64,000 bases of DNA from Geothrix sp. 21YS21S-2 (lineage in GTDB: Bacteria; Acidobacteriota; Holophagae; Holophagales; Holophagaceae): positions 1,088,001 to 1,152,000 of the forward strand of contig NZ_CP132910.1 of the NCBI RefSeq assembly GCF_030846775.1. The letters are read 5' to 3'. A model generated the notes under the pieces. That model saw only the letters and a list, made by a program, of their open reading frames with translations, was not told where the DNA came from and made no database searches. Every line of letters begins with the position of its first letter. Positions within the stretch are counted from its first letter, which is position 1. Made by a program: the position numbers and the translations under genes. This document shows positions 33,554 to 58,176 of the stretch, in pieces.

Positions 33554-34483
33554 TCAGCCCGCCACCCCGTCCACCAGGTCGATGTCCAGCTCCAGGGCGC
33601 CATCCGCCGCGGGACGCGTCATGGGCGTGAACGGCGGCCCCCACAGCACCTCTTCGGCGGTGTAGGACGTGCGCTGGTAGATGGTCTGGGAGAACGTGTC
33701 ATCGAAGGCCTTAACCAGGACAATGAATTCCGCATTAATTTTTCGCAGGGCGGCATCGTCCATGCCGGCGAGGGGACTGGCGTCATCGATGGGGTGCACC
33801 ACCGTCCAGTTGGCGGGGAACAGGTTGATGCGGCTCCGCTCGAGCGCGAGGGTGTGGAAGCGCCGCGTGCCGGTCTCCGGGTCCAGCCGCGAGAGGACCA
33901 CGGTCGCCTCCACCTCGATGAGCTGGTTGCTGCGCTTGTTCACGAACCGGAACATGAAGCCGCTGCCGCCGCGGTAGGGGGCCACCAGGGCATGCCGGCT
34001 GAAGCGGATCTGGGCGTGGGGGCGGGAGAAGCGGCCGTAGAGCAGCCCGGTGGCCAGGGCGAAGCTCAGGAGCCCCAGCAGGGACTCCAGGGCCGCCACG
34101 GCGCTGGCCAGGTGGCTCTGCGGGCTGATGTGCCCGTAACCCACGGTGGTCAGGGTCTGGGCGCTGAAGAAGAAGGCGTCCAGCAGCCTGTCCACGAATC
34201 CGCTCCCCCCGGGCCGTATGAAGTGCTCCATGCCCACCGCCAGGTAGACGCCGGCGAACACCAGGTTGGTGAGCAGGTAGCCCAGGAAGAGCAGGGCCAG
34301 GAACCGGGCGCCCCCCATGGTGATGAGCCGATGGTACAGCTCGTAGGGGCGGAACCAGGGCAGGCCCACCCGGCGCACGTTGATGCTGCCGTCCTTGTTC
34401 ATCCACCGCCGGGCGCCGGACCGCAGGCCCAGGCCCAGGTCGTCGCCAGGCGGGAGCTTGTCGAAAGCGGAGGGGGCGGTCAT
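33554..34483 (-). CDS. inward-rectifier-type potassium channel (KirBac-like)
   Basis: A 309-residue channel. Two membrane helices (about 58-84 and 125-150) flank a pore helix and the selectivity filter TVGYG at 113-117. The C-terminal 160 residues are the immunoglobulin-like cytosolic domain of Kir channels (FMFRFVNKRSNQLIEVEATVVLSR, then IDDASPLAGM and EFIVLVKAFDDTFSQTIYQRTSYTAEEVLWG). It passes potassium through the inner membrane. The ATG at 34483 gives an N-terminus like the family; a TTG 39 bases earlier extends the frame without support. Confidence 0.93.
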   Translation of the reverse strand: MTAPSAFDKLPPGDDLGLGLRSGARRWMNKDGSINVRRVGLPWFRPYELYHRLITMGGARFLALLFLGYLLTNLVFAGVYLAVGMEHFIRPGGSGFVDRLLDAFFFSAQTLTTVGYGHISPQSHLASAVAALESLLGLLSFALATGLLYGRFSRPHAQIRFSRHALVAPYRGGSGFMFRFVNKRSNQLIEVEATVVLSRLDPETGTRRFHTLALERSRINLFPANWTVVHPIDDASPLAGMDDAALRKINAEFIVLVKAFDDTFSQTIYQRTSYTAEEVLWGPPFTPMTRPAADGALELDIDLVDGVAG

Positions 34484-40565: not shown

Positions 40566-40618
40566 CCGGTGCGGAATGCGGCATGGCGACGGCGCGGCCA
40601 TCGGGCTAGGGTAAAAGG

Positions 40619-41308
40619 ATGGATATCGCTGGCCGCTCCCTCGCCCTGCTCCTGGTCACCGCCTCCCTCTGCGGGCAGGTCCCGCTGGACAGGATGGAGC
40701 TGCCGAACCGGATCCTGGCCGAGGAGATCCTCCGGAAGCCCCAGTTCTCCTTCCAGACGACCACCCCCCCGGTGGACGTGCGGGTGTCGACCATGGAGAA
40801 GCTGTTCGACCACCCGCGGCTGGCGGCGGCCATGTGGCGGGAGTGCCAGTTCGCGCCCCGGCTCTTCGCCTTCCCCCTGCCCTCCAGCGGCCTGATCGTG
40901 GACGACACCCGGGGGCTCAAGGGAACCCTGACCCTCGCCTACCGGGAGCCCGGCAAGCGGGTCTACCTCATCGACGGGCGGGTGGAGCGCTGGCGCATGG
41001 GCAACCCCTTCGCCGTGGGCGCGAAGATGGTGGTGATCTACTCCTACTGGCGCGGCCCCAAGGGCTTCCAGAGCCGCCTGCAGACCTGGACGGCCCTGGA
41101 CAGCGCCCTCCTGGGAACCCTCACCCGCCCCTTCAAGAAGTACATCCAGCACCGCCAGGAGGAGTTCATGGGCTACATCCTGGCCAACATGTCCCACGGC
41201 GGCGAATTCGCGGAGCACAGCTACGAGGACTTCCTCGGTCCCATCCGCCGGGAGGGGGACCCGGAGGCGGTGCGGGACTACCTGGAGGTCTTCGGCAAGC
41301 GCAGGTGA
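40619..41308 (+). CDS. exported protein, unknown function
   Basis: A 229-residue protein with a signal peptide (SLALLLVTASLCGQ). The rest is a mix of strands and helices (RVYLIDGRVERWRMGNPFAVGAKMVVIYSYW); the last 70 residues are helical. No family is recognised. The last 31 bases overlap, on the opposite strand, the end of the alpha/beta hydrolase gene. Confidence 0.7.
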   Translation: MDIAGRSLALLLVTASLCGQVPLDRMELPNRILAEEILRKPQFSFQTTTPPVDVRVSTMEKLFDHPRLAAAMWRECQFAPRLFAFPLPSSGLIVDDTRGLKGTLTLAYREPGKRVYLIDGRVERWRMGNPFAVGAKMVVIYSYWRGPKGFQSRLQTWTALDSALLGTLTRPFKKYIQHRQEEFMGYILANMSHGGEFAEHSYEDFLGPIRREGDPEAVRDYLEVFGKRR

Positions 41309-42111
41309 AGGCCGGCATCGAAGGCCCGCAGCGCGTCCAGGAACATCGCCGGCTCGTCCCACATGACCCAGTGCCTGGCCTTGGGGAAGGCCACGGTCCG
41401 GAAGTCGGGCAGGTCCTGGAAACCGAAGAAGGCCAGCGCCGCCTTGCGCCGGGCGGGGTCCGGGTCCTCGGTCCCGGCCTTGAAGTGCGCCACCGGCAGC
41501 TTCAGGCTCCCCTGGCGTCCCTTCAGGGAATCCACGGTCATGCCCCGCAGGTAGGCCTGGATCGCCGGAACCGGCACCAGGAGGGCCTCCGCCAGCACCC
41601 GCGCGCCCTGGGCCTCCCCTGACGTCATGGGCTTGAAGAACGACTGGAGGGCGCCCCGGGGGTCCGCCTCCAGGGCCTTGACCGCCCCATCGAAAAAGCC
41701 CGCCGGCACCACCCCCAGGAAACTGTCCACGAGCACCAGGCCCCGGAAGGCCCCGGGGTCCCGCAGCACCGCCAGCGCCGACAGGGGCCCGCCCATGGAG
41801 TGGCCCACGATGAGGCAGGGCTCCAGCTGCTCCCGGCGCACCAGGGCGGCCAGTTCCCCGGCGATCGGCTCGAAGGCCGCCGCCCCGTCCACGACGGCCG
41901 GCCCGTCGGATCCTGAGCTGCCCGGCAGGTCCACCCGCACCACGGTGTGATCCTTGGCCAGGGCCCAGGCCACCTCGGCCCACACCTCCCGGTTCCCGCC
42001 CAGCCCGTGCACCAGCAGGACGCCAGGCCCCTTGCCTTCCCGCACGAACGAAGGCACCGAGGCGAGAAGGCCCGTTGCCAGGACCAGGGGGAGAAGGGAC
42101 CGAAGGCGCAT
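41278..42111 (-). CDS. exported alpha/beta-hydrolase
   Basis: A 277-residue hydrolase with a signal peptide (RLRSLLPLVLATGLLASVPS). Fold motifs: oxyanion strand VLLVHGLGGNREVW, nucleophile elbow VGHSMGGPL (Ser in GxSxG), and the catalytic His in FPKARHWVMWDEP; a mid-protein Asp lies in FKAGTEDPDP. Substrate is unknown; peptidase, esterase and haloalkane dehalogenase are all possible in this family. ATG at 42111 with GGAG seven bases upstream. Confidence 0.88.
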   Translation of the reverse strand: MRLRSLLPLVLATGLLASVPSFVREGKGPGVLLVHGLGGNREVWAEVAWALAKDHTVVRVDLPGSSGSDGPAVVDGAAAFEPIAGELAALVRREQLEPCLIVGHSMGGPLSALAVLRDPGAFRGLVLVDSFLGVVPAGFFDGAVKALEADPRGALQSFFKPMTSGEAQGARVLAEALLVPVPAIQAYLRGMTVDSLKGRQGSLKLPVAHFKAGTEDPDPARRKAALAFFGFQDLPDFRTVAFPKARHWVMWDEPAMFLDALRAFDAGLHLRLPKTSR

Positions 42112-42203
42112 GGGGAACTCCGCTTTGGTCACCAGGGTATCCGGCAAACGGGCCAGCAACATTCCGTCCGAGAACCGCCCGTGCGCCCGAAGGCTGTTCT
42201 GTA

Positions 42204-42249
42204 TTGACGAATTCAACAAGAAACGTATCTTTGCAAAGCTAAATTTGCA
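42204..42249 (+). promoter_or_regulatory. predicted promoter of the polysaccharide operon with adjacent inverted repeat
   Basis: TTGACG (42204-42209), a 16-base spacer and TATCTT (42226-42231) form a plausible housekeeping promoter, 70 bases ahead of the oxygenase ATG. Right after it comes TGCAAA-GCTAAA-TTTGCA (42232-42249), an inverted repeat placed where an operator would be. The gap is clearly more AT-rich than the surrounding sequence. Confidence 0.6.
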
Positions 42250-42301
42250 CCAGAAGGGTTCCCTTGCAGGTCCACCGAGCCAACCATCCAGGACCCTTGC
42301 C

Positions 42302-43036
42302 ATGTTGAACATCCCGAAAATTTCTGGACATCCCCTGGAGGAGGTCCCCTTTTCGTGGGCCGCGATCGGACCGCTGTTCGAACCCGGAGATGCCGATGCG
42401 CTCCTCGCCTCCTTCCCCACGGATCATTTCAAGGACATCGCGGGCTACGACGGCGAGAAGGGCTATCGGTACCGCGCCCGCTCCCTGGTTCACATGGGCC
42501 GGGAAGGTCCTTCCCATGCGGCCAGCCTGAGCCCGGCTTGGCGCGGCCTGGCCGGGGATATTCTCTCACCCGCATACCGCCAGGCGATGATGCACCTGAC
42601 TGGGCTGGATCTCAGGACCGCGGTGATGGAGGCCAATATCACGGACTATGGGCCTGGGGCCTGGCTGGGGCCGCACCTTGACCTGCCCGCGAAGCTGGTG
42701 ACCCATGTGCTCTACTTCAACCGGGCCTGGACCCCCGAGGATGGGGGAGGCCTTCGCATCCTGCGCTCGCCCCTGGAAACCGACGTGTTCCAGGAAATCG
42801 TCCCGGTCGTGGGCAATTCCGCGGTGCTGGTGCGTTCCGATGCATCCTGGCATTCGGTGCCCCGGGTGTCCTGCGACCACCGCCGCGCCGTGAACGTGAT
42901 CTTCCATTCGCCGGGTTCCGCCAGTTCGATGTGGACGCCGCCGGAGGTCCGGCGCTCCACCGGCGAGATGGCCCCTCTGGCCTTCGTGGCCGAGCTTGTG
43001 CGGGCGGTGAAGCGGCGCGTGGAGGGTTTGCCATGA
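42302..43036 (+). CDS. 2OG-Fe(II) oxygenase family protein
   Basis: A 244-residue non-haem iron oxygenase. The facial triad is PHLDL (His and Asp, about residues 125-127) and His in SWHSVPRV, followed by Arg in RRAVNVIFH that would bind 2-oxoglutarate. Residues 1-90 are a leading domain. Such enzymes hydroxylate a substrate, and relatives often occur within surface-polysaccharide clusters, which fits the next gene; its stop overlaps that gene's start by ATGA. Codon use is less GC-biased than in the flanks. Confidence 0.84.
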   Translation: MLNIPKISGHPLEEVPFSWAAIGPLFEPGDADALLASFPTDHFKDIAGYDGEKGYRYRARSLVHMGREGPSHAASLSPAWRGLAGDILSPAYRQAMMHLTGLDLRTAVMEANITDYGPGAWLGPHLDLPAKLVTHVLYFNRAWTPEDGGGLRILRSPLETDVFQEIVPVVGNSAVLVRSDASWHSVPRVSCDHRRAVNVIFHSPGSASSMWTPPEVRRSTGEMAPLAFVAELVRAVKRRVEGLP

Positions 43037-45237
43037 TCCGCATCGCCCAGGTCGGCACATTCGATGTGGATAACCTGGGCGACCTGCTGTTTCCCGTGGT
43101 ATTCAGCCGGATCCTCGCGGAAGTGGGCAGCGAATGGGGAATGCCCATCGAGTGCTCCTTCTTCAGTCCCCAGGGACTCCCGGAGGGTACCCTGTACCGC
43201 GACCAGATCGGCACCCTGCCCCTCGGCGACCTGGACCGGCTGGATTCGGAAAACCCCTTCGATCTGATCTTCATCGGGGGCGGTGACATCGTGCGGGATG
43301 ACGACAGCTCCCTGGCTGCCATCTACGGACCGAACGGCTCCAACCTGGGGTTCTCGCACTTGATGTCGCCGACACGACGCCCGGATCCCCGGCTCGTGCT
43401 CCTGATGGCGGGCGTTCCCTTCGCCCTGGAGGCCGATTTCAGGGCCTACCTTGCCAACAGCTTCTCCCGGCTCCGCCTTGCCGCGGTGCGGGACCGCGTG
43501 TCGGCCAGGCGGCTCTCCGCCCTGGTTCCGGCAAACCTCCGGGTGCTTCCCGACCTGGTGCGTGGCTTGGCCCACATCCATTCCCGGACGGAGCTTCTCG
43601 GCCGGAAGGATTCGCTTGTCCCCCCGAACCTGGCGGAGTCGGGGTACCTGTGCTTCCAGACCAACGCGGCGCCGGGTGCGGATGTAGGGACGATCGGGCA
43701 GGCGCTCCTGCAGCTGGAGCAGAGGACGGGCCTCCCGGTGGTGCTGATGGAGATGGGCAGGACCGGCGGCGAGGGCATGGTCCTGACCCGATTGGAAAAG
43801 CGTTTCCATTTCAGGTACGCCCGCCAGGGGACCGGCCTCGGATCTGTGTTGCAGAGGGTCGCGGCCATCGCCGGGTCCCGGGGATTTCTCGGATCCAGCC
43901 TGCATGGGGCCATCCTGGCCCACACCTACGGGGTGCCGCATTTCTCCTACGCGGGAGGATCCCTGGACAAGATCAGGGGCTTTTATGAATGTTGCGGAAC
44001 GGGCCTCTGCTTCCCGGATTTCCATGCCTTCGAGGGGCAGCTGCCCGCCATCGCCGAGCGCATCTGCGGTTCCCCGGTCCCGGACGCCCCCGGCCCCTCG
44101 GATGATTATTCGGCCATTAAGGGTTTCATCCTCGAAGCGCTTTCCTCGGTCCGGGACGGGAAACCTCCTCCCGCCCCCTACGTCAGGCAGGTGGACAAGG
44201 ATTATCAGCGGTCCCATACCCGGCGGCAATGGCGCCTGGACGCGCGGATTACCCGGTTGCGCTTCCCCGCCCTGGCCATCCGGCATCCCCGGATCCACCT
44301 CGCCGTGATCCGCGCCATCAAACTCGCCTGGTGGACCGTCTCCTTCCAGCTCCTGGCCCGGTACCGGCAACGCCGGGATGCAAACCACTCGGTGATCCAT
44401 GAAAGCGCCCTGGTCACCCCCTTGCCGTGGCTGGGCGGAACGGACCGTCCCGCTCCGTCGATCGCCGTGGTCTGCCACCTGTACTACGACACCCTGGCCG
44501 ATGAGATCCGGACCTACCTGCTGCACATCCCTTTCGGCTTCGATCTGTTCATCACGACCGACACCGAGGTGAAGCGCCGGAGTATCGAAAAGGCCTTCCT
44601 GGACTGGAACCAGGGCCGGGTCGAGGTAAGGCTCGCCGAGAACCGCGGGCGCGATATCGCCCCGATGCTCATCACGTGTGCGGACGTCTTCGACCGTTAT
44701 GAATTCTTCCTTCACATCCACGGCAAGCGGTCACCCTACGGCAAGCCCTACACGCATTGGCGGAAATACCTCCTGGACACGCTCGTGGGATCCGCGGGGA
44801 TCGTTTCCAGCGTATTCGAGATATTCCATGAATTGCCGAACGTCGGGATGATCGGACCCCAGAACCCGAAATGGATCCGACCCCAGCCTACCCTGACCTC
44901 GGATTACGACTTGGCGGTGCAGTTTCACCGCCGGATCGGCCTGGAACTGGACTTCCGGCGCCGGATCGAATTTCCGGCCGGATCCATGTTCTGGGGCCGG
45001 TCCCTGTCCCTGCGCAAGCTTCTGGACGCGGGCCTCACCCTGACGGACTTCGCACCGGAACTGGGCCAGACCGGTGAAACCCTCGCCCACCTGATCGAAC
45101 ACCTGTTCTTCCGGATCTGTGAAGGCTCGGGCTATTCCTGGTTGAAGATCGCCCATCCGCTGCAGAGCGGGGAGAACCGGGAGCTGGTGAGGTTGACCCG
45201 GCGGGAGGAGATGCAGTTCCTGCTACTTCCCGGTTGA
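43033..45237 (+). CDS. polysaccharide pyruvyltransferase-RgpF glycan fusion protein
   Basis: A 734-residue two-domain protein. Residues about 5-345 are a polysaccharide pyruvyl transferase (WcaK/AmsJ) domain: IAQVGTFDVDNLGDLLFPVVF at the start, IFIGGGDIVRDD, and GSSLHGAILAHTYGVP near its end. A linker rich in Arg follows, then residues 475-715 are a rhamnan-synthesis F (RgpF) domain (IAVVCHLYYDTLADEIRTYL, NRGRDIAPMLITC, FFLHIHGKRSPYGKPY, WGRSLSL). Such a chain could both make and pyruvylate a rhamnose-like chain. It overlaps the oxygenase stop by ATGA and, at its end, the flippase gene by 15 bases on the other strand. Confidence 0.85.
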   Translation: MIRIAQVGTFDVDNLGDLLFPVVFSRILAEVGSEWGMPIECSFFSPQGLPEGTLYRDQIGTLPLGDLDRLDSENPFDLIFIGGGDIVRDDDSSLAAIYGPNGSNLGFSHLMSPTRRPDPRLVLLMAGVPFALEADFRAYLANSFSRLRLAAVRDRVSARRLSALVPANLRVLPDLVRGLAHIHSRTELLGRKDSLVPPNLAESGYLCFQTNAAPGADVGTIGQALLQLEQRTGLPVVLMEMGRTGGEGMVLTRLEKRFHFRYARQGTGLGSVLQRVAAIAGSRGFLGSSLHGAILAHTYGVPHFSYAGGSLDKIRGFYECCGTGLCFPDFHAFEGQLPAIAERICGSPVPDAPGPSDDYSAIKGFILEALSSVRDGKPPPAPYVRQVDKDYQRSHTRRQWRLDARITRLRFPALAIRHPRIHLAVIRAIKLAWWTVSFQLLARYRQRRDANHSVIHESALVTPLPWLGGTDRPAPSIAVVCHLYYDTLADEIRTYLLHIPFGFDLFITTDTEVKRRSIEKAFLDWNQGRVEVRLAENRGRDIAPMLITCADVFDRYEFFLHIHGKRSPYGKPYTHWRKYLLDTLVGSAGIVSSVFEIFHELPNVGMIGPQNPKWIRPQPTLTSDYDLAVQFHRRIGLELDFRRRIEFPAGSMFWGRSLSLRKLLDAGLTLTDFAPELGQTGETLAHLIEHLFFRICEGSGYSWLKIAHPLQSGENRELVRLTRREEMQFLLLPG

Positions 45238-46605
45238 CGCCGCATCCCGCGCCTCCTGGCGCATCATCCGGGCGATTTCCGCATAGGCCGCCAGGGTCCG
45301 CGCGAGACGCCCCAGGAGGGATCCCGTGACCACCGCCAGGGTACCGCCCAGGTACGGCCCGAGCAGGCAGGCGCTGACCGGGAACACCACCAGCCCGGCC
45401 AGGACGCCCCGGCCATAGGGCCACGACCGCCCCGTGGCGAACAGCGTGTTCAAGGGCAACGAGCCGGCCTTGATCACGGAGAACCAGAGGCAGACCTTCA
45501 TGATCGGGATCCCGTCCACGTAGCGGGGGATCGCCAGGGGCACCAGGTGGGGCAGCAGGGACGAGCCCAGGAGGACCAGGGGCACCATGACGACCGCCAG
45601 TCCGATCGCGAACGGCAGGGACCCGGCATAGGCGAGCCTGACACTGCCGTCACGCGCATAGGCCGCAACGACGCGGGGGGTCATGGCCTGGTTGACCGCC
45701 TGGGGAACGATGAGCATGCCTTCCCGCAGAACCGAGGCCACGGCGAACAGGCCGAGCCCGCCCGCCCCGCCCAGCCAGAAGATCAGGACGCTCTCGGTCG
45801 CCATCCAGACGGTGGTGTAGAGTGCGTTCCAGAAACTGTAGGGAAGGCCCATTCCCACCACTTCCTCCAGGGCGGCCCGGCCGAGCCGGAGCGGCACCTT
45901 CAGGGGGCGGAACCGGTGGTAGAGCCAGATTCCGGCCATGGCGGGGAGCGCAGCCCGGATGCAGAGGCCGTAGATGCCCGTGAACGGCAGGATGAAGACC
46001 AGTCCGAACCCCATGGCCGCCTGAAGGAACTGGATCCGAGCCATGGCCACGAACTGGTGGGTCGCACGGTAGGTCGCGTTAAGGTAGCCCCCGTAATAGA
46101 CGTTCCAGCAGAGAACGGCCTGGGACGTCCAGCCCGCCAGGGCGATGAAGTCATTCCGGAAAAGGGCCATGAAGGCGAACACCAGGAAAACGAAGGAAGC
46201 CAGGCCCGAAACACCGGCGTTCCACGCGCCGGCGACCGAGGCCGCAGCCTCGGCCTTGTCCTGCCTGTCCGTTCCGGCGTAAAAGGGGATCTGGCGCCCG
46301 ATACCGTCGAACGTGCCCAGCTGAAGGAAGGTGAGATACATGATCGGAAGGGTGAAGACCCGGAACAGGCCGGTCTCCTCGGGTCCGAGGAAGCGCGCCA
46401 CCAGCAGGCCGCCCAGCGCCCCCAGAAGCGAGGTGGAGATGCTGCCCCCGGAGAGCGCGGCCACGGACCCGAAGAGCTCCCCATGGCCCATGAACGCTGC
46501 CCTGCCCTGGGCCAGCCACCCGCCTGCGCCCTTGGCCAGGGCCGCCCGCCAACCCTCAGGCCCCTCGCCGCGAGGTAGGCTCGGAGGGGCGGACGGTGAG
46601 CGCAT
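45223..46605 (-). CDS. oligosaccharide flippase (Wzx/MATE-like)
   Basis: A 460-residue membrane protein with about 12-14 helices starting near residue 45 (GSVAALSGGSISTSLLGALGGLLVARFLGPEETGLFRVF), the opening typical of Wzx and other polysaccharide biosynthesis exporters; a long GLPYSFWNALYTTVWMATESVLIFWLGGAGGLGLFAVAS follows at mid-protein. It would flip lipid-linked sugar units across the inner membrane, probably those made by the neighbouring fusion protein and oxygenase. The start at 46605 is weakly supported; an ATG 114 bases inside is possible. Confidence 0.86.
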   Translation of the reverse strand: MRSPSAPPSLPRGEGPEGWRAALAKGAGGWLAQGRAAFMGHGELFGSVAALSGGSISTSLLGALGGLLVARFLGPEETGLFRVFTLPIMYLTFLQLGTFDGIGRQIPFYAGTDRQDKAEAAASVAGAWNAGVSGLASFVFLVFAFMALFRNDFIALAGWTSQAVLCWNVYYGGYLNATYRATHQFVAMARIQFLQAAMGFGLVFILPFTGIYGLCIRAALPAMAGIWLYHRFRPLKVPLRLGRAALEEVVGMGLPYSFWNALYTTVWMATESVLIFWLGGAGGLGLFAVASVLREGMLIVPQAVNQAMTPRVVAAYARDGSVRLAYAGSLPFAIGLAVVMVPLVLLGSSLLPHLVPLAIPRYVDGIPIMKVCLWFSVIKAGSLPLNTLFATGRSWPYGRGVLAGLVVFPVSACLLGPYLGGTLAVVTGSLLGRLARTLAAYAEIARMMRQEARDAASTGK

Positions 46606-46698
46606 GCCTCATCGTCGGCATCGAGGCGGCCATGTCAAGCGGGACGCGCGCACCAGGACCAGGCCTGGCGATGCCCTCCGCCTCCGCTGGCGCAGAGA

Positions 46699-46872
46699 TC
46701 AGTGCTCCGGCTGGACGATCCGGATCTGCGCGTCGATCTCGGCCTGGAGGATCTTCGCGGCCTCGAGGTAGGAAGGATCGCCGGTCGCCTTGGCCGCAGC
46801 ATCCAGCCGGAGCAGGAGCGTTTCCGCAAAGTCGAAGGAAATATGCAGCAGGGGCGTCGTAGTGGAAGACAT
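46699..46872 (-). CDS. small protein, unknown
   Basis: A 57-residue acidic-helical protein (SFDFAETLLLRLDAAAKATGDPSYLEAAKILQAEIDAQIRIV). AGGAGG lies four bases before the ATG at 46872. No family is recognised. It stands about 90 bases upstream of the flippase on the same strand. Confidence 0.6.
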   Translation of the reverse strand: MSSTTTPLLHISFDFAETLLLRLDAAAKATGDPSYLEAAKILQAEIDAQIRIVQPEH

Positions 46873-46986
46873 GGGACCTCCTGTGGCCAGACTCCCCAAG
46901 TTAGGCCGAAAAACCCCGGAGCACCATGTGTTGAGGCGAGGGAATGCGAGGGATGGCCGAGGTTCCCAGGTGCCGATGGCCAGCCT

Positions 46987-47742
46987 TCAGCCGTTCAGGC
47001 ACCGGCGCAGGGCGGGCATGCGTTCGCGGCTCACCGGGATGCGCTCGCCGCCGGACGTGGTCAATTCGCCGCCCCCCCCGGTCTCGACGGCCAGTTCCCT
47101 GATGGCCGCCACGGCCACCATGGCCCCCCGGTGGCAGCGGAAGAAGGCCGGGGAGAGCATGGCCTCCAGCTCGTCCAGGGTGCGGTCGAGGGGGAAGCGG
47201 CCTTCGGCGGTGTGGGCGAAGAGCAGGCGGTTCTCGGTGGACAGGTGGCTCACGTCGCTCCAGGCGAGCACGCGCAGGCGGCCCTTCCGGGTGACGATGA
47301 ACCGCTCGGGCGCCTCCTTCTTCCGCACGGCCTCCATGGCCTGGAGGAGCACCGCGACGTCGGGCTGGGCCAGGAGGCGGCCTTCCACCCGCCTCAGGGT
47401 CTCCTCCAGCCGTTCCGTGACCAGCGGCTTCATGAGGTAGTCCCAGGCCTCCCAGCGGAAGGCCTCGATGGCGTGGTCGCCGTAGGCCGTGACGAAGACG
47501 ATGGGCGGAAGCTTCAGGTTCTCGGCCCGGGCGGCCCTCAGCAGCCCGAAGGCGCCCGCGGGCGGGAACTCGATGTCCAGGAAGAGCACCTCCGGCTGGA
47601 TCCGGCGCAGGAGCGCCAGCCCCGAAATGCCGTCCTCGGCCTCGCCCAGGCAGCAGCTGCCCGGCCTGAGCTCCTCCACCATGTCCTGCACGCGGGAGCG
47701 CGCCAGGGGTTCATCTTCGATCAGGGCATAGTTCAGGGACAC
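46987..47742 (-). CDS. LytTR-type response regulator
   Basis: A 251-residue regulator. Receiver (residues 1-120): YALIEDEPLARSR, phospho-Asp in LFLDIEFPPAGAFG, VTAYGDHAIEAFRWEAWDYLMKP. DNA-binding LytTR domain (150-250): FIVTRKGRLRVLAWSDVSHLSTENRLLFAHTAEG, LDRTLDELEAML, FFRCHRGAMVAVAAI. Binds direct repeats upstream of target genes. The start is GTG at 47742, which overlaps the kinase stop by ten bases and has GGAG at normal distance. Confidence 0.93.
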   Translation of the reverse strand: MSLNYALIEDEPLARSRVQDMVEELRPGSCCLGEAEDGISGLALLRRIQPEVLFLDIEFPPAGAFGLLRAARAENLKLPPIVFVTAYGDHAIEAFRWEAWDYLMKPLVTERLEETLRRVEGRLLAQPDVAVLLQAMEAVRKKEAPERFIVTRKGRLRVLAWSDVSHLSTENRLLFAHTAEGRFPLDRTLDELEAMLSPAFFRCHRGAMVAVAAIRELAVETGGGGELTTSGGERIPVSRERMPALRRCLNG

Positions 47743-48725
47743 AGCCTCAGCTCCACGACACAACCGGAATCCACGTCCGGCCATTGTAACCGACCGCCCA
47801 TCGCTTCCAGGCGGTGGCGGACCGTGCGCAGGCCGATGCCCTCGGGCGCGCCCGCCTGGCGCCCGACCCCGTCGTCCACCAGGCGGATCAGGGGTCCCTC
47901 CACCGTCAGGTGGAGGCTGCAGGATCCCACTTTCGGACGGAAGCCGTGCTTGAGGCTGTTCTCCACGAGGGGCAGCAGGAGCAGGGGCGGGATGGACCGC
48001 CCCCGGCTGGCCTCCGGCAGGTCGAGGACGAAATTCAGCCGCGCGCCGAACCGGAGCTTCTCCAGTTCCAGCAGGTGGCGGAGCAGGTCGAACTCCTCGC
48101 CGAGCGTCCAGTTCTCCCGCTCCAGGGCCTCCAGGATCTTCCGCAGCAGGAGGGAGAGGTGTTCGATGGCGCGCTCCGCATCCTTCGGCGCCTTGGAGAC
48201 CAGGGAGGCGGCCGCGTTCAGGGCGTTGAACAGGGTGTGCGGGCTGAGCTGGGACTTGAGCGCCAGCAGGTTCGCACGGGCGCTGGACTGCTCCAGGGCG
48301 CGGGCCATGGCCACCTGGGACGAGGTGCTCCGCACGCTGACCACCAGGCTCGAGAGCAGGAGACCCATCGTCACGACGAAGAAGGCCGAAAGCTGGAGGT
48401 GGAGGACGTGGTCGGCCGTGAAGAGCAGGACCCCGACGAGGACCAGGTACACCAGCATCCACTTGCCCAGCGAGAGGATGGCGGCCCAGCCGGGGTCGAG
48501 CCGGGGTGGATGGGCGAGGATCCAGGGGCTCAGCGCCTCGTAGCTCCCCCACAGGACCACGGTGCACACCGAGCCCACGCAGAAGCTGAGAAGCAGGTAA
48601 TGGGGCACCGGTCCGGAAAGGAGGGCCTGGGCGAGGGCGCTGGGGATGCCCCCGAGCAGGACGGCCCTCGGCACCCAGCGGAGGAAGGCTCCCTGGAAGG
48701 GGCGGATGTCGGGATTCCAGTCCAT
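47733..48725 (-). CDS. LytS/YesM-type sensor histidine kinase
   Basis: A 330-residue kinase. About four membrane helices in residues 15-150 (LLLSFCVGSVCTVVLWG, MLVYLVLVGVLLFTADHVL, FFVVTMGLLLSSLVVSV), then the His-kinase phospho-site helix LKSQLSPHTLFNALNAA (NPHFLFN type with Ser-Pro-His) and the HATPase box LLPLVENSLKHGF, DDGVG and EGIGLRTVRHRLEAMGG. No extra input domain, so signals are membrane-derived. Overlap with the LytTR gene marks its partner. Confidence 0.93.
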   Translation of the reverse strand: MDWNPDIRPFQGAFLRWVPRAVLLGGIPSALAQALLSGPVPHYLLLSFCVGSVCTVVLWGSYEALSPWILAHPPRLDPGWAAILSLGKWMLVYLVLVGVLLFTADHVLHLQLSAFFVVTMGLLLSSLVVSVRSTSSQVAMARALEQSSARANLLALKSQLSPHTLFNALNAAASLVSKAPKDAERAIEHLSLLLRKILEALERENWTLGEEFDLLRHLLELEKLRFGARLNFVLDLPEASRGRSIPPLLLLPLVENSLKHGFRPKVGSCSLHLTVEGPLIRLVDDGVGRQAGAPEGIGLRTVRHRLEAMGGRLQWPDVDSGCVVELRLCP

Positions 48726-48743
48726 GGGTTCGATCCTGTCTTC

Positions 48744-49250
48744 CTAGAAATGGACACCGACCCCGATGCCGAGATTGTTGACGGTGATCGCGGGCCGGCC
48801 GAAGACGTACTTCGAGTCGTAGCCGATGGACCAGGTGAGGGCGCCGGCCCGCTTCTCGTACCCCACGAAGGAGACCAGGCCGAAGGGATTGGTCCCGCTC
48901 CGGTCCCCCCTCCCGATGAAGCCCACCGTGCCGATCTCCATGCGCAGCCACCGGTGCACCACCATCTCCAGCACGACGCCCGTGCAGAGGTAGCGCTCGT
49001 GCCTGCCTCCGACGTCGAGATCCAGGGAGGAGACCCTCAGCCCGTACCGCTGGGAGGCGTTCGCGGACAGCAGGAGGTCGCCGCCCAGCTCCAGGTTCCC
49101 GTGGCGGGCCCCGTCCTGGGTGGCCTGTCCGCCGCCCAGGTTGAGCCGGAGGAACACCGTTTCGGGCGGACGGCCACCGGCGGGTTCCTGGGCCGGCAGG
49201 GGGATCCCCATGAGGAGGACCGCAAACAGGACGCTTCGAGAAAGGAGCAT
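48744..49250 (-). CDS. outer-membrane beta-barrel protein, unknown
   Basis: A 168-residue exported protein with a signal peptide (LLSRSVLFAVLLMGIPLPAQ) and alternating strands (FLRLNLGGGQATQDG, YGLRVSSLDLDVGG, LEMVVHRWLRMEIGTVGFIG) ending in Phe (GIGVGVHF), the outer-membrane insertion signal. About eight strands. It lies 18 bases before the sensor kinase, so the barrel and kinase are co-transcribed. Confidence 0.78.
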   Translation of the reverse strand: MLLSRSVLFAVLLMGIPLPAQEPAGGRPPETVFLRLNLGGGQATQDGARHGNLELGGDLLLSANASQRYGLRVSSLDLDVGGRHERYLCTGVVLEMVVHRWLRMEIGTVGFIGRGDRSGTNPFGLVSFVGYEKRAGALTWSIGYDSKYVFGRPAITVNNLGIGVGVHF

Positions 49251-49276
49251 GTCGCCTCTCCTGGGTTGAAAGACCA

Positions 49277-49918
49277 TTACCATCTCCCCGTCACTGCGAA
49301 CTGGACGTTGAGGGCCTTGCGGAGTTCGGTCGGGACCTCGCCGGTGGGGACCTGGAGGCCGCCGGCCGCGGGACGATCGTACTGGGAGAGCACGGCCCGG
49401 GTTTCGAAGCCCAGGTGCCGGTTGACCTGGTAGCCCAGGCCCAGGGCGGCCCAGGGGCTCACGCGGTTCTTCCGGGTGTCCGAGCGGTAGTCGCCGTCCG
49501 GGTCGTGATTCCAATGGTCCGTGATGGTGAAATGTTGGAACCATTGAAGCACCCCGGCCCCTGCCAGGCAATAGAGGCCATTCCCGGCCGTGCCGTCGAA
49601 GGCGTAGAGCAGGTCCGCCCCGGCCCCGGCCGAGAAGAAGGTGCGCTCCTGCACGTAGTTGGAAAAGGGCCGATGGTACCGGGAGACCCGGAAGAGATCC
49701 AGGTCCAGGCGGGGGCGCACCGACAGGCGCTCCCCGGTCCTGACGGTGACCTGGAAGCTGGTGCCGAGCCCCACTTTGTCGTTGAGATCCGTCCTCAGGT
49801 CCGAAAGGGGCGCGTCCACCGAGACGGCCCCCCCGAACTGGACGGGCAGCTGGGCCCCCAGGGCGGGGCCGAGCCCCAGCAGGAGAAGGGGAAGGAGGGT
49901 CAAGGGACTGCGCAACAT
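49277..49918 (-). CDS. outer-membrane beta-barrel protein, unknown
   Basis: A 213-residue exported protein: signal peptide (SPLTLLPLLLLGLGPALGAQ), then barrel-like strands (GTSFQVTVRTGERLSVRPRLDLDLFRVS, LLYAFDGTAGNGLYCLAGAG, AALGLGYQVNRHLGFETRAVL) and the C-terminal FAVTGRW. Probably 8-10 strands. AAGGAG precedes the ATG at 49918. It heads a string of four leftward genes: barrel, barrel, kinase, regulator, with gaps of 26 and 18 bases and then a ten-base overlap. Confidence 0.78.
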   Translation of the reverse strand: MLRSPLTLLPLLLLGLGPALGAQLPVQFGGAVSVDAPLSDLRTDLNDKVGLGTSFQVTVRTGERLSVRPRLDLDLFRVSRYHRPFSNYVQERTFFSAGAGADLLYAFDGTAGNGLYCLAGAGVLQWFQHFTITDHWNHDPDGDYRSDTRKNRVSPWAALGLGYQVNRHLGFETRAVLSQYDRPAAGGLQVPTGEVPTELRKALNVQFAVTGRW

Positions 49919-50136
49919 GGGGTCTCCTTTCGGGAAGAGGACTTCGGACCAGGAAGGCCGGGCGGTGCCCGCCCAAATCACCATGAACGAAGAATGACCC
50001 CGGGAGGGAAACGATCGGACCAACCCCACCTATCGCGCGACGAATGGAGGCAAAAAACCTACGGGGATGGGGCCGTTGTGACCGATGCACCCGGAGCTCC
50101 GGCCATAATAGGACGAACAGGTAGTTTGAGGTGACC

Positions 50137-50478
50137 ATGAGTGAATGGCGGCACATCGCAACCGCCCCGAAGGACGGGAGCATTCTTATCGGACGCGGGT
50201 CCTTCGGACCGGGCGACGAGGACGGCATGCTCGCCGTCGCCATGCGCTGCCAGGACGGGAAGTGGCTGCGGGACCAGGACGGGAACGGGTTCACCGTCCC
50301 CTGCTTCCCCACCCACTGGATGCACATGCCCGCGCCGCCCAAGCCCCAGGACCGCCTGGTGGCGTTCAAGGCCTGCGACCGGGACCGGGAGGAGTTCTTC
50401 ACCGAAGGCAAGTCCTGGGAACGCTGCTGCGACGCCGACGCCGAGGCGTGGTTCACCTGGCCGGTCAAGCCGTCCTGA
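50137..50478 (+). CDS. DUF551-like small protein
   Basis: A 113-residue protein with the DUF551 pattern: EWRHIATAPKDGSILIG at the start and FPTHWMHMPAPPKPQDR in the middle, as in many phage and bacterial proteins of unknown role. The ATG at 50137 has GAGGTG three bases upstream. Stands alone in front of the kinase cluster. Confidence 0.8.
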   Translation: MSEWRHIATAPKDGSILIGRGSFGPGDEDGMLAVAMRCQDGKWLRDQDGNGFTVPCFPTHWMHMPAPPKPQDRLVAFKACDRDREEFFTEGKSWERCCDADAEAWFTWPVKPS

Positions 50479-50708: not shown

Positions 50709-52589
50709 ATGCCCCGCCTTCATAGCATGGTGCTGTGGAAAGCCATCGTCCTCACGACCCTGTGCGCCGCGGGGATCTGGAGCCTCTGGTGGTGGGGCCT
50801 CGTCCATTCTCCGAGGACCCAGGTCCGCGACCGGGCCCGGCAATCCCTGGTGCAGATGGACCGGACCATCGGCCGCGAGCTCAACCGGGCCGAAACCACC
50901 GGCCTCGCCTTCGGCGCCTGGTGGTCCCGGGAGGAAGGCCGGCTGGACGACCCCGCGCGACTGCAGGGCGTCATCGCCTTCCTGGAACGGGGAGCGATCA
51001 TCACCAACCTCATCCTCAGCCGGGAGGACGGCGATTCGGCCTGCGTCGTGAGGAGGGACGGCGAATGGAACCTGGTCCTATACCGGGCGGGCCGGCATCC
51101 CAGACGGTTCATGATGCGTTCGGGGAAATGGGTGCCCGGTCCCGCGGATGACCGCGAGGTCTACGATGCCCGGCAGCGCTACTGGTACCGGTTCGGGGCG
51201 GCCCACGCCCGCCCGGCCTGGACGCCGGAGGCCTACCGCTACTACACCTCCATGGTCGGAGGGTTCACCTACACGGTGCCGGTCCGCAATTCCCAGGGCC
51301 GTCTCGAGGGCGTCATCGGCGTGGACGTCTCCCTGGAGGAGCTGACGGCCTTGATCTGGGAGCACCAGCCGACCCCCGGCGCCCGCTTGATGGTGACGGA
51401 CCTGTCCGGCCGGCTCCTGGTCCCGCCCAGGACCCCGGAGATGCTCGACCAGGGGACCCGGTTCAGGCACCAGCTGACGCCCTCCACGCCCCCGGGCGAC
51501 AGCCGCCCGGGCTCCAGCGCGGCCGTCGTCAGGGCGGACGGCGCGTATTCCACCGCGGGAACGCCGCAGATGCGCCTGCAGGTCGCCATTCCCGAGGAGG
51601 ACCTCTTCCCCGGCCTTCACCGCCGGCGGATCGCCACCTTCCTCCTGGCCCTCGCCCTGGTCCTGGGGGTGGCCTGGAGCCTCCTGGACCTGCACCGCCA
51701 CCTCGTGCGCCCCATGCGCGAGCTTGCGGCCGAGGCGGGCCTGCCCGGGTCCGGAAGCGCCCCGGGGAAGGACTACCACTCCGACATCTGGGAACTCGAG
51801 CAGGTGGGCCGGCAGCTGCGCGACGCGGGCCGGGCCGTCCAGGAGAAGGAGCTCCTCCTGAGCCGGGCCGAGCACAACCAGCGGATGGATTCGGTGGGCA
51901 TGATGGCGCCGGGCATCGTGCACGACGTGAACAACCATCTGGCCGTGGTGCTGGGCCAGCTCACGCTCTGCCGGAGCCAGTCCGAGGGCCACCCCGCCCT
52001 CCAGCCCCGTCTTCGGGCGGCGGAGGGAGCGACCATCAAATGCGCCGAGGTGCTGCGCGGGCTCCTGGACTACAGCCGCCCGGATCCGGGCCAGCGCGTG
52101 CTGATGAACCTGAACACGTCCCTGGAGACCGGCATCGGGCTGCTGCGGGGCGTGCTGGGCAAGGGCATCCGGGTGGAGCTGGACCTGGATCCGGAGCTGC
52201 CGATGCTGTTCGGGGACCCCGTCAAGATCCAGCAGATCATCGTGAATCTGGGCATCAACGCGCGGGACGCCATGCCCCTTGGCGGCCTGCTGAGCTTCCG
52301 GACGTTCTCCTCCGAGGGGAACGCCTGCCTGGAAGTGCGGGACACCGGCTGCGGCATGGACGACGACGTGAAGCGGCGCATCTTCGAGCCCTACTTCTCC
52401 ACCAAGGAGCCCGGGAAGGGCACCGGTCTCGGCCTGGCCATGGTCGCCAACATCGTGACCGGCCACGGGGGGCGGATCCAGGTGGATTCGGAGCCCGGCG
52501 CCGGGACCACCTTCCGCATCGAGCTGCCGCCCTCGCTGCGCAAGGGCGCGGAGCGGACCTCGCGGGAGGGCCGGCCGGCAACGGTCTGA
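50709..52589 (+). CDS. membrane sensor histidine kinase (copy A of a paralogous pair)
   Basis: A 626-residue kinase. Helix 1 at about 9-30 ([23 protein letters not shown]), a periplasmic domain (about 35-305) containing [16 protein letters not shown] and [30 protein letters not shown], which is dCache-like, helix 2 at about 308-328, a linker, then the phospho-site helix [21 protein letters not shown] and HATPase ([41 protein letters not shown]). No receiver is attached. The kinase at 56.3 kb is a clear paralogue, and a Ser/Thr kinase gene separates them. Confidence 0.94.
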
Positions 52590-56253: not shown

Positions 56254-58176
56254 ATGCAGCGACCCAATAGCATGGTGCTGTGGAAGGCCATCCTCCTTAC
56301 CGCCTTGTGTTCCACCGCCGTCTGGGGACTCTGGTGGTGGGGGCTCGTCCATTCCCCCAGGACCCAGGTGCAGGCCCGCGCCAGGGCCTCCCTGGCCGAG
56401 ATGGAACGGACCATCGCCCGCGAGCTGTCCCGTGCGGAAACCACCGGCCTCGCCCTGGGCGCCTGGTGGGCCCAGGAACACGCCAGCCTGGAGGACCCCG
56501 CGAAACTGCAGAGCGTCATCGCCTTCCTCGAGAAGGGAGGCATGGTCACCAACCTCATCCTGGGCCGGGAGGATGGCGATTCCGCCTGCATCGTGAAAAA
56601 GGATGGGGAATGGAACCTGATCCTCTTCCGGGCGGGCCTGGTTTCCAGGCGGCTGCTGTTGCGGGAAGGGCAATGGGTGGCCGGACAGGGAAATGACCGG
56701 GAGACCTACCGGCCCCAGGAACGCCACTGGTACCGGTTCGGCGCGGCCCTGGGCGCACCCGCCTGGACGCCCGAGGCCTACCGGTTCTTCACGACCCGGG
56801 CCGGCGGCTTCTCCTACGTCGTTCCGGTCCGGGACGCGCGCGGCCGGCTGGAAGGCGTCGTGGGCGTGGACGTCTCCCTGGAGGAGCTGACCCAGTTCAT
56901 CTGGGACCACCAGCCGACCCCGGGCACCCGCATGGTCGTGTCGGACGCGGGGGGACGGCTCCTGGTCCCGCCCAGGATTCCCGAAATGCTCGATCCGGGG
57001 GCGCGCGTCGACCACCAGCTGATGCCGGTGCCGCCATCCTTCCCGGAAGCGGAGCCGGCCGGCCCCAACGCGGTCCGGGCTCCGGTGGGCGCCTTCATCG
57101 CGGCCGGCGGCGCGTACGCCGTCCCCGGAAAGCCGCGGATGAACCTGCATGTCGCGATTCCCGAGGAGGACCTCTTCCCCGGGCTGCGGCCGCGGCGGAT
57201 CGCCGTCTTCGTCCTGGCCCTGGCGATCGTGCTGGGCGTGGCCTGGAGCCTCCTGGACGTCCACCGCCGGTTCGTGCGCCCCATGCGGGACCTGGCGCTC
57301 GAGGCCAGTTCGCCCTCCACCGACGACGGGTCCAGCGAGGACTATCAATCCGATGTCTGGGAGATCAAACAGGTCGGGCAGCAGCTGCGCGTCGCCGGCC
57401 GGGCGGTCCAGGAGCGCAACCGCCTGCTCAACCAGGTGGAGCACAGCCAGCGGGTGGATTCGGTCGGGATGATGGCTCCGGGCATCATGCATGACGTGAA
57501 CAACCAGCTGGCGGTGGTCCTGGGCCAGATCGCCCTCTGCCAGACCTTGTACGAGGATCATCCCGCGCTCCAGCCCCGCCTCCGGCAGGCCGAGGAGGCC
57601 GCCGCCAAGTGCAGCGAGGTCCTGCGCGGGCTGCTGGACTACAGCCGCCCCGACCCCGGCGAACGCGAGCCGATGAGCCTGAACGTCTCGGTGGAGCACG
57701 TGGTGGCCCTGCTCGGCCCCGTCGCCGGACCGTCCATCCAGGTCCGGAAGGACCTGGACCCCGAGTCGCCCGTCATGTTCGGCGAGCCCCAGAAGATCCA
57801 GCAGGTCCTGGTGAACCTGGGAATGAACGCCCGGGACGCCATGCCGGAAGGCGGCCTGCTCACGTTCCGCACCTTCCGCTCGGAGGGCAACGTCTGCCTG
57901 GAAGTCCGGGACACCGGCTGCGGCATGACCCGGGAGGTGATGGAGCGGGTCTTCGAACCGTTCTTCTCCACCAAGGCGCGCGGGAAGGGCACCGGGCTCG
58001 GACTGGCCATGGTCGCCAACATCGTGGCCGCCCACGGCGGGAGCATCCGGGTGGATTCCGTACCTGGCGAGGGCACCGCGTTCCGGATCGAATTCCCCTG
58101 TTCCCTCCGCAAGCGCGGGGAGACGCGGGCCGCCGCCAAAGCAGAAGAAGGTCTGGCATCCCCATACACAAAGTGA
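56254..58176 (+). CDS. membrane sensor histidine kinase (copy B of a paralogous pair)
   Basis: A 640-residue kinase, colinear over its length with copy A: the same SMVLWKAI start, [72 protein letters not shown] (helix 2), MMAPGIMHDVNNQLAVVLGQI and [15 protein letters not shown]. Differences are spread along the protein, so the duplication is old. Its last residues are an Ala/Glu-rich tail. It may sense the same or a related periplasmic ligand. Confidence 0.94.
   Translation: MQRPNSMVLWKAILLTALCSTAVWGLWWWGLVHSPRTQVQARARASLAEMERTIARELSRAETTGLALGAWWAQEHASLEDPAKLQSVIAFLEKGGMVTNLILGREDGDSACIVKKDGEWNLILFRAGLVSRRLLLREGQWVAGQGNDRETYRPQERHWYRFGAALGAPAWTPEAYRFFTTRAGGFSYVVPVRDARGRLEGVVGVDVSLEELTQFIWDHQPTPGTRMVVSDAGGRLLVPPRIPEMLDPGARVDHQLMPVPPSFPEAEPAGPNAVRAPVGAFIAAGGAYAVPGKPRMNLHVAIPEEDLFPGLRPRRIAVFVLALAIVLGVAWSLLDVHRRFVRPMRDLALEASSPSTDDGSSEDYQSDVWEIKQVGQQLRVAGRAVQERNRLLNQVEHSQRVDSVGMMAPGIMHDVNNQLAVVLGQIALCQTLYEDHPALQPRLRQAEEAAAKCSEVLRGLLDYSRPDPGEREPMSLNVSVEHVVALLGPVAGPSIQVRKDLDPESPVMFGEPQKIQQVLVNLGMNARDAMPEGGLLTFRTFRSEGNVCLEVRDTGCGMTREVMERVFEPFFSTKARGKGTGLGLAMVANIVAAHGGSIRVDSVPGEGTAFRIEFPCSLRKRGETRAAAKAEEGLASPYTK

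Follow-up and report, generated by a model that had tools for sequence, protein, structure and literature searches.

The pyruvyl transferases Pvg1p and CsaB are stand-alone enzymes, and RgpF of streptococci is a rhamnosyltransferase. Modules of the RgpF type also occur in proteins of Proteobacteria and Selenomonadales (L004–L083), in many of them fused to glycan enzymes. The closest described system as regards gene content is the wbbY–wbbZ locus of Klebsiella pneumoniae O1, a small unlinked locus with a sugar transferase and a pyruvyl transferase, which extends, and then caps with pyruvate, a chain made by another locus, and which was judged to be laterally acquired (available text of PMC10629545). 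The locus described here, from the soil acidobacterium Geothrix sp. 21YS21S-2, is similarly small and unlinked, but where wbbY and wbbZ are two separate divergent genes (available text of PMC10629545), here a putative pyruvyl transferase and an RgpF module form one polypeptide, encoded together with an oxygenase. By this analogy, which is one of gene content and from which chain capping may be surmised, we propose with moderate confidence that the locus is an accessory cassette for glycan modification, patchy in its distribution, which works in trans on a chain built elsewhere. It lies in a 64,000-nucleotide stretch of the chromosome, referred to as the window, and comprises or adjoins the following features.

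41278–42162, minus strand: alpha/beta hydrolase gene, divergent from the oxygenase gene (Abhydrolase_6, E 1.7e-19)
42163–42301, plus strand: AT-rich intergenic region with a sigma-70-like promoter match at 42204–42231 (GC content, motif scan)
42302–43036, plus strand: 2OG-Fe(II) oxygenase gene, 244 aa (PF13640, HxD...H motif, PDB matches)
43033–45237, plus strand: fusion gene, 734 aa, with a pyruvyl-transferase domain, a helical linker and an RgpF module (Pfam; linker helices from models)
43258–43953, plus strand: PS_pyruv_trans (PF04230) match, residues 76–307 of the fusion (E 6.7e-11)
44452–45123, plus strand: RgpF (PF05045) match, residues 474–697 of the fusion (E 9.3e-46; GT-A fold modelled)
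45223–46605, minus strand: flippase-like membrane protein gene, 460 aa (hydropathy, relatives; Pfam blank)
41310–46698: segment to which nothing corresponds at this site in the same-genus genome G002; about 0.5 kb carrying a DUF1801 gene lies there instead

The coordinates and lengths given in an earlier note on this DNA, as well as the ATGA coupling of the oxygenase to the 734-residue protein, were all confirmed. The ATGA at 43033–43036 is the oxygenase stop codon overlapping the start of the fusion gene, and owing to this overlap the two genes probably constitute one transcription unit. The flippase-like gene converges on the fusion gene, tail to tail, with a 15-base overlap of the ends, and thus lies outside that unit. 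The neighbours, previously called housekeeping genes, fit this name loosely, as they include the alpha/beta hydrolase, a LytTR response regulator and a histidine kinase (Pfam); the statement that no glycosyltransferase or polymerase is near holds for the 17 neighbouring proteins scanned with Pfam (33.5–55.8 kb), among which there are also no integrase or transposase domains. Whether the hydrolase, located within the variable segment, belongs to the cassette is uncertain: 4.8% of 186 size-matched genes have a codon distance at least as large, and a 63% identical relative occurs in G003 in a different context. Three other readings were rejected: a tRNA-linked island, the window containing no tRNA; a defence island, since PADLOC gave a generic 2OG match only; and phage cargo, with no PHROG match and no relatives of the pyruvyl part or the oxygenase in viral contigs (three phage records match the RgpF part alone). 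Elsewhere in the window, an inward-rectifier-type potassium channel gene (33554–34483) has relatives 76–89% identical in G002, G003, and G005, and the two sensor-kinase genes at 50727–52589 and 56272–58176 are alike, both products starting with MVLWKAI. A single G002 gene matches both of them (66% and 59%), which makes a local duplication likely.

In the Geothrix genome (5.25 Mb, sampled GC content 69.2%) the PF04230 and PF05045 families occur only at the fusion gene. A search for the same domain fusion, suggested by the earlier note, revealed none in any of 59 relatives, five of the same genus included, nor in the other genomes of a phylum set of 396 (own genome included), three of which gave partial matches only (residues 464–705, 169–309, and 678–730). 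Seventy-six plasmid records match the fusion, none over more than 80% of its length. Genome contigs were scanned with six patterns, three of them from the N-terminal half, and the best 80 of the 219 loci were kept. The matches in these fall in the RgpF part, the longest one starting at residue 400 and none earlier; given this limit on what was kept, a second copy may exist elsewhere. These 80 loci were all checked by tblastn and two small HMMs, and 28 of them by Pfam. In none of them did tblastn find the oxygenase, the flippase-like protein, or the pyruvyl part, and the small HMMs likewise found no oxygenase there; in one locus (L058) the HMMs detect a pyruvyl-type fragment that lies about 7.6 kb away from the RgpF gene and on the other strand. 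PF04230 was found in none of the 28 Pfam-scanned RgpF relatives, various of which have GT2, GT4, methyltransferase, WbsX, HAD, PIG-L, or sulfotransferase partner domains. A limited literature search yielded no description of the fusion and no co-mention of "polysaccharide pyruvyl transferase" and "rhamnan synthesis protein F". To judge from these sequence searches, the pyruvyl–RgpF pairing is new within the data searched, with no second copy there. The view that it joins two activities usually separate thus stands for this particular pair, though not for RgpF modules in general, which are promiscuous; since they fuse to many partners, the pairing is new as a combination, but its type is familiar.

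The pyruvyl-transferase part scores 43 bits with PF04230 (gathering cut-off 25.3), and the relatives found for it are only 26–28% identical. The motifs N14-L-G16-D17, just upstream of the PF04230 match, and R153-D-R-V-S157 and H291, inside it, correspond to the NxGD, RxxxS/T, and His conserved in pyruvyl transferases according to the available text of PMC10629545. They were placed by eye and by alignment with three PF04230-family relatives, WbbZ not being in the alignment, and are common to the fusion, Pvg1p, and CsaB. Unlike CsaB, the fusion misses the cut-off of the CsaB equivalog model (22 versus 213 bits), and all its NCBIfam matches are sub-threshold, the comparison with the two enzymes being made by motifs and family score. 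Two residues ahead of H291 stands Ser289, at what we take to be the spacing of the phosphate/phosphoenolpyruvate-contacting Arg337 of Pvg1p from the conserved His. The Arg337 position is conserved in WbbZ and similar in the WcfO and CsaB models (available text of PMC10629545). A two-Rossmann, GT-B-like fold would be expected of the family; the fold model of the pyruvyl part, obtained by folding the whole fusion, is unreliable (pLDDT mostly below 50). A sequence search of PDB gave no match for the whole fusion and, for the pyruvyl and RgpF profiles, best E values of 0.63 and 0.47, respectively. The modest PF04230 score, the distance from the CsaB equivalog, and the serine in front of the conserved His would all be expected if the N-terminal domain had kept the scaffold without pyruvate transfer, serving some other transfer or acceptor binding only. 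This we regard as possible yet rather unlikely, because all three pyruvyl-transferase motifs are present and two enzymes putatively catalyzing the same pyruvylation share just 14% identity (available text of PMC10629545).

The RgpF module is much better matched, with 157 bits against a cut-off of 25, and the match is confined to positions 269–499 of the 503 of the Pfam model. With the N-terminal half of the model unmatched, the fusion is an RgpF-module protein and not a full RgpF; compared with the streptococcal protein, it matches the C-terminal half of the model and has a pyruvyl domain in place of the N-terminal one. All 23 residues invariant in 37 aligned relatives (29–38% identity) are present, including H482, N537-x-G539-R540-D541, H563-x-K565, and FPAGSMFW at 647–654. 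A model of the module folded with an alignment of relatives (pLDDT 85.5, pTM 0.78) gave Foldseek and VIA matches mostly to enzymes of the fold that we take to be named GT-A. The best VIA match was BcsA (9fmv_A; Z 13.1, rmsd 3.3, 185 aligned residues), followed at Z 11.8 to 12.1 by mannosylglycerate synthase, the WrtF fucosyltransferase, and the rhamnosyltransferase RmlT (Z 11.8, rmsd 3.7, 177 aligned). The modelled fold points to a glycosyltransferase and says nothing of its donor sugar.

The weaker GC bias described earlier was borne out for the oxygenase and fusion genes, which are atypical in a GC and codon-usage scan. Third-position GC is 0.803 in the oxygenase gene, 0.828 in the fusion gene, and 0.880 in the long form of the flippase-like gene, against a mean of 0.941 (sd 0.037) in 340 called genes from the window and twenty 20-kb genome samples, those outside the window being called by a simple in-house caller. 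The codon distance of the oxygenase gene is equalled or exceeded by none of 169 size-matched genes, that of the fusion by about 1 of 72, and that of the flippase-like gene (422-aa form) by about 11 of 166, fractions that are somewhat too small, as genes of very atypical composition are dropped by the caller. The AT-richness of the promoter region was likewise confirmed: the 42163–42301 interval has 54% GC, and when 6390 overlapping 100-base windows are ranked by GC, one window in it is the 10th lowest (the lowest being number 0). Its sigma-70-like match agrees at 9 of 12 positions, two such matches being present in a 5.8-kb region versus 0.5 expected. The inverted repeat next to the promoter (TGCAAA-N6-TTTGCA, 42232–42249), earlier taken as a sign of horizontal gain, was rejected as a signal, since similar repeats arise in 16% of shuffles of the stretch.

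The corresponding site differs in relatives of the same genus. In G002, about 0.5 kb separates the matches to 40579–41309 and 46699–46912, and the response-regulator and kinase genes lie some 16 kb off, while in G005 the match to 40571–41320 directly abuts that to 50072–50478, 8.75 kb (41321–50071) being absent. The two junctions differ, so the site is a variable spot. A junction alone fits loss in the relatives or gain here equally, and it is the codon use of the oxygenase and fusion genes that favours gain. The horizontal acquisition put forward earlier is therefore supported for the oxygenase–fusion pair, by its codon use, its absence from five same-genus genomes, and the flank-to-flank junction of G005. 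Two of these five genomes are incomplete (G003 81%, G005 83% complete) and one is contaminated (G004, 8%), so absence is less sure there than in G001 and G002. Gene order and content over 40619–50137 vary with respect to both G002 and G005, and no mobile element was seen.

The three genes need not all have been imported as one unit, as the flippase-like gene is convergent and nearer to the native composition, with relatives found only in the same family. Neither Pfam nor NCBIfam matches its product up to E 1, nor does Pfam match the G035 relative, and for this reason the product is named flippase-like and not filed as Wzx. By hydropathy it is a polytopic membrane protein, with 14 overlapping hydrophobic stretches and a GRAVY of 0.64, values close to those of the two flippases in this genome that match a family model, one MurJ-type (16 stretches, 0.71) and the other Polysacc_synt_3 (13, 0.69). 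Relatives with 53–63% identity occur in 3 of 59 genomes (G035, G030, and G021), the similarity starting at residue 34 in one of them and at 41–43 in two; since the first of these extends beyond the inner Met39 on the upstream side, the long start is mildly favoured. In G035 a Wzy_C gene directly adjoins the flippase-like relative, with Wzc/Wzz and glycosyltransferase genes within 10 kb, and G030 has the same gene order, judged by size and start sequence; this polysaccharide context was domain-scanned in one of the three (G035), the gene calls in G021 being poor. Neither the oxygenase nor the fusion was found in the three stretches by tblastn, and of the G035 locus, tested over 8.2 kb, only the flippase-like gene and one 51-base stretch have DNA-level matches in the Geothrix genome. 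The flippase-like gene thus seems to be of an origin other than that of the pair. Given its relative in a polysaccharide locus, the variation of the site between species, and the mixed orientation of the three genes, the three could be read as what a larger polysaccharide locus left behind on decaying, with neither the flippase nor the two modification genes having a function at present. This appears unlikely in view of the three intact reading frames, the retained catalytic motifs, and the promoter-like match upstream; moreover, since the flippase-like gene differs in composition from the other two, a common source locus is not required.

The oxygenase matches 2OG-FeII_Oxy_3 (PF13640) above the cut-off (E 1.8e-10) and has a complete iron triad, H125-L-D127 with the distal H184, and an Arg-Arg pair downstream. 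Its closest solved structures by sequence are 9ei6 (E 4.9e-23) and 9blq (E 1.6e-11), labelled prolyl-4-hydroxylase-like and putative hydroxylase; a literature search for 9ei6, 9ei7, and 9blq found no paper. Weak matches exist in 6 of the 59 relatives (best E 2.8e-7, 29% identity), with none in the five same-genus genomes. Among 20 matching plasmid records, those of Mesorhizobium and Nostoc show 32–38% identity and those of Pseudomonas 28–29%. In the three of these 20 records that were inspected, the neighbours were radical SAM and aminotransferase genes, nif genes, and aminotransferase and sulfotransferase genes, respectively, with no glycan locus among them. On a Mesorhizobium plasmid (L119:5658–6937) two adjacent genes match the oxygenase, the first annotated as hypothetical only. 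The sole glycan tie of the oxygenase here is the overlap of its gene with the fusion gene. That the genes serve a small secreted or lipid-linked glycoconjugate instead of an O-antigen or capsule, with the oxygenase acting on its amino-acid or lipid part, would agree with the hydroxylase labels and with the radical SAM, aminotransferase, or sulfotransferase genes near two of the plasmid relatives, but is very unlikely, as no assembly-line or amino-acid-activating domain was found in the 17 neighbouring proteins scanned. Surface-glycan work by the oxygenase–fusion pair, as first suggested, is supported by the domains.

The accessory cassette that we favour would depend on a chain made elsewhere, and the search for the rest of the glycan genes revealed three polysaccharide loci, to none of which the cassette, at 1.13 Mb, is linked.

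2.18–2.20 Mb: polysaccharide locus with Wzy_C, the MurJ-type flippase, and glycosyltransferases (median third-position GC 0.89)
2.85–2.87 Mb: polysaccharide locus with Wzy_C and the Polysacc_synt_3 flippase (median third-position GC 0.96)
3.00–3.03 Mb: polysaccharide locus with rmlD, a dTDP-sugar epimerase, and three GT2 genes (median third-position GC about 0.80)

The rmlD match at 3.02 Mb exceeds its cut-off, and 22 of the 25 called genes of the 3.00–3.03 Mb locus have third-position GC of 0.83 or less, like the cassette; the locus has no Wzy_C, both Wzy_C matches of the genome lying outside it. An 8-kb part of it gives scattered 65–83% identical stretches in four of the five same-genus genomes and none in the fifth, and was never found there as a block. 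The large polysaccharide locus at 2.99–3.03 Mb (L156, L157) is low in third-position GC and carries genes for rhamnose and other sugar nucleotides. The shared codon composition and the supply of rhamnose make the 3.00–3.03 Mb locus the best guess for the source of the acceptor, a guess and no more.

Starting from the gene anatomy, families, motifs, GT-A model, patchiness, and composition observed, we infer the donor sugar, the acceptor, the order of the steps, and the roles of the oxygenase and the flippase-like protein as follows. The RgpF module would attach a sugar, L-rhamnose perhaps, to a surface polysaccharide, lipid-linked or still growing, which is made elsewhere, the rhamnose-gene locus at about 3.00–3.03 Mb being the best candidate. 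The N-terminal domain, by what its family does, would then move pyruvate from phosphoenolpyruvate onto the sugar, forming a ketal cap. In the weakest step, the oxygenase may hydroxylate the same glycan, the lipid of that glycan, or a precursor. As for the flippase-like protein, its role may be export of the modified unit; alternatively, it may have persisted on its own from a polysaccharide locus specific to the family. A bolder version, decidedly unlikely, would make the fusion a self-limiting capping enzyme, adding the last sugar and closing it with pyruvate, and the oxygenase the source of a third, previously unseen change of the cap; extension and termination would then be coupled within one polypeptide.

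To our knowledge, the surface glycans of the Acidobacterium group are little described. If the proposed reading is true, an acidobacterium may alter its outer coat by means of a tiny cassette acting on a chain made elsewhere, and pyruvate capping can set chain length and alter phage recognition. The fusion would then also offer a convenient way of studying, in a single protein, how sugar addition is coupled to capping with pyruvate.
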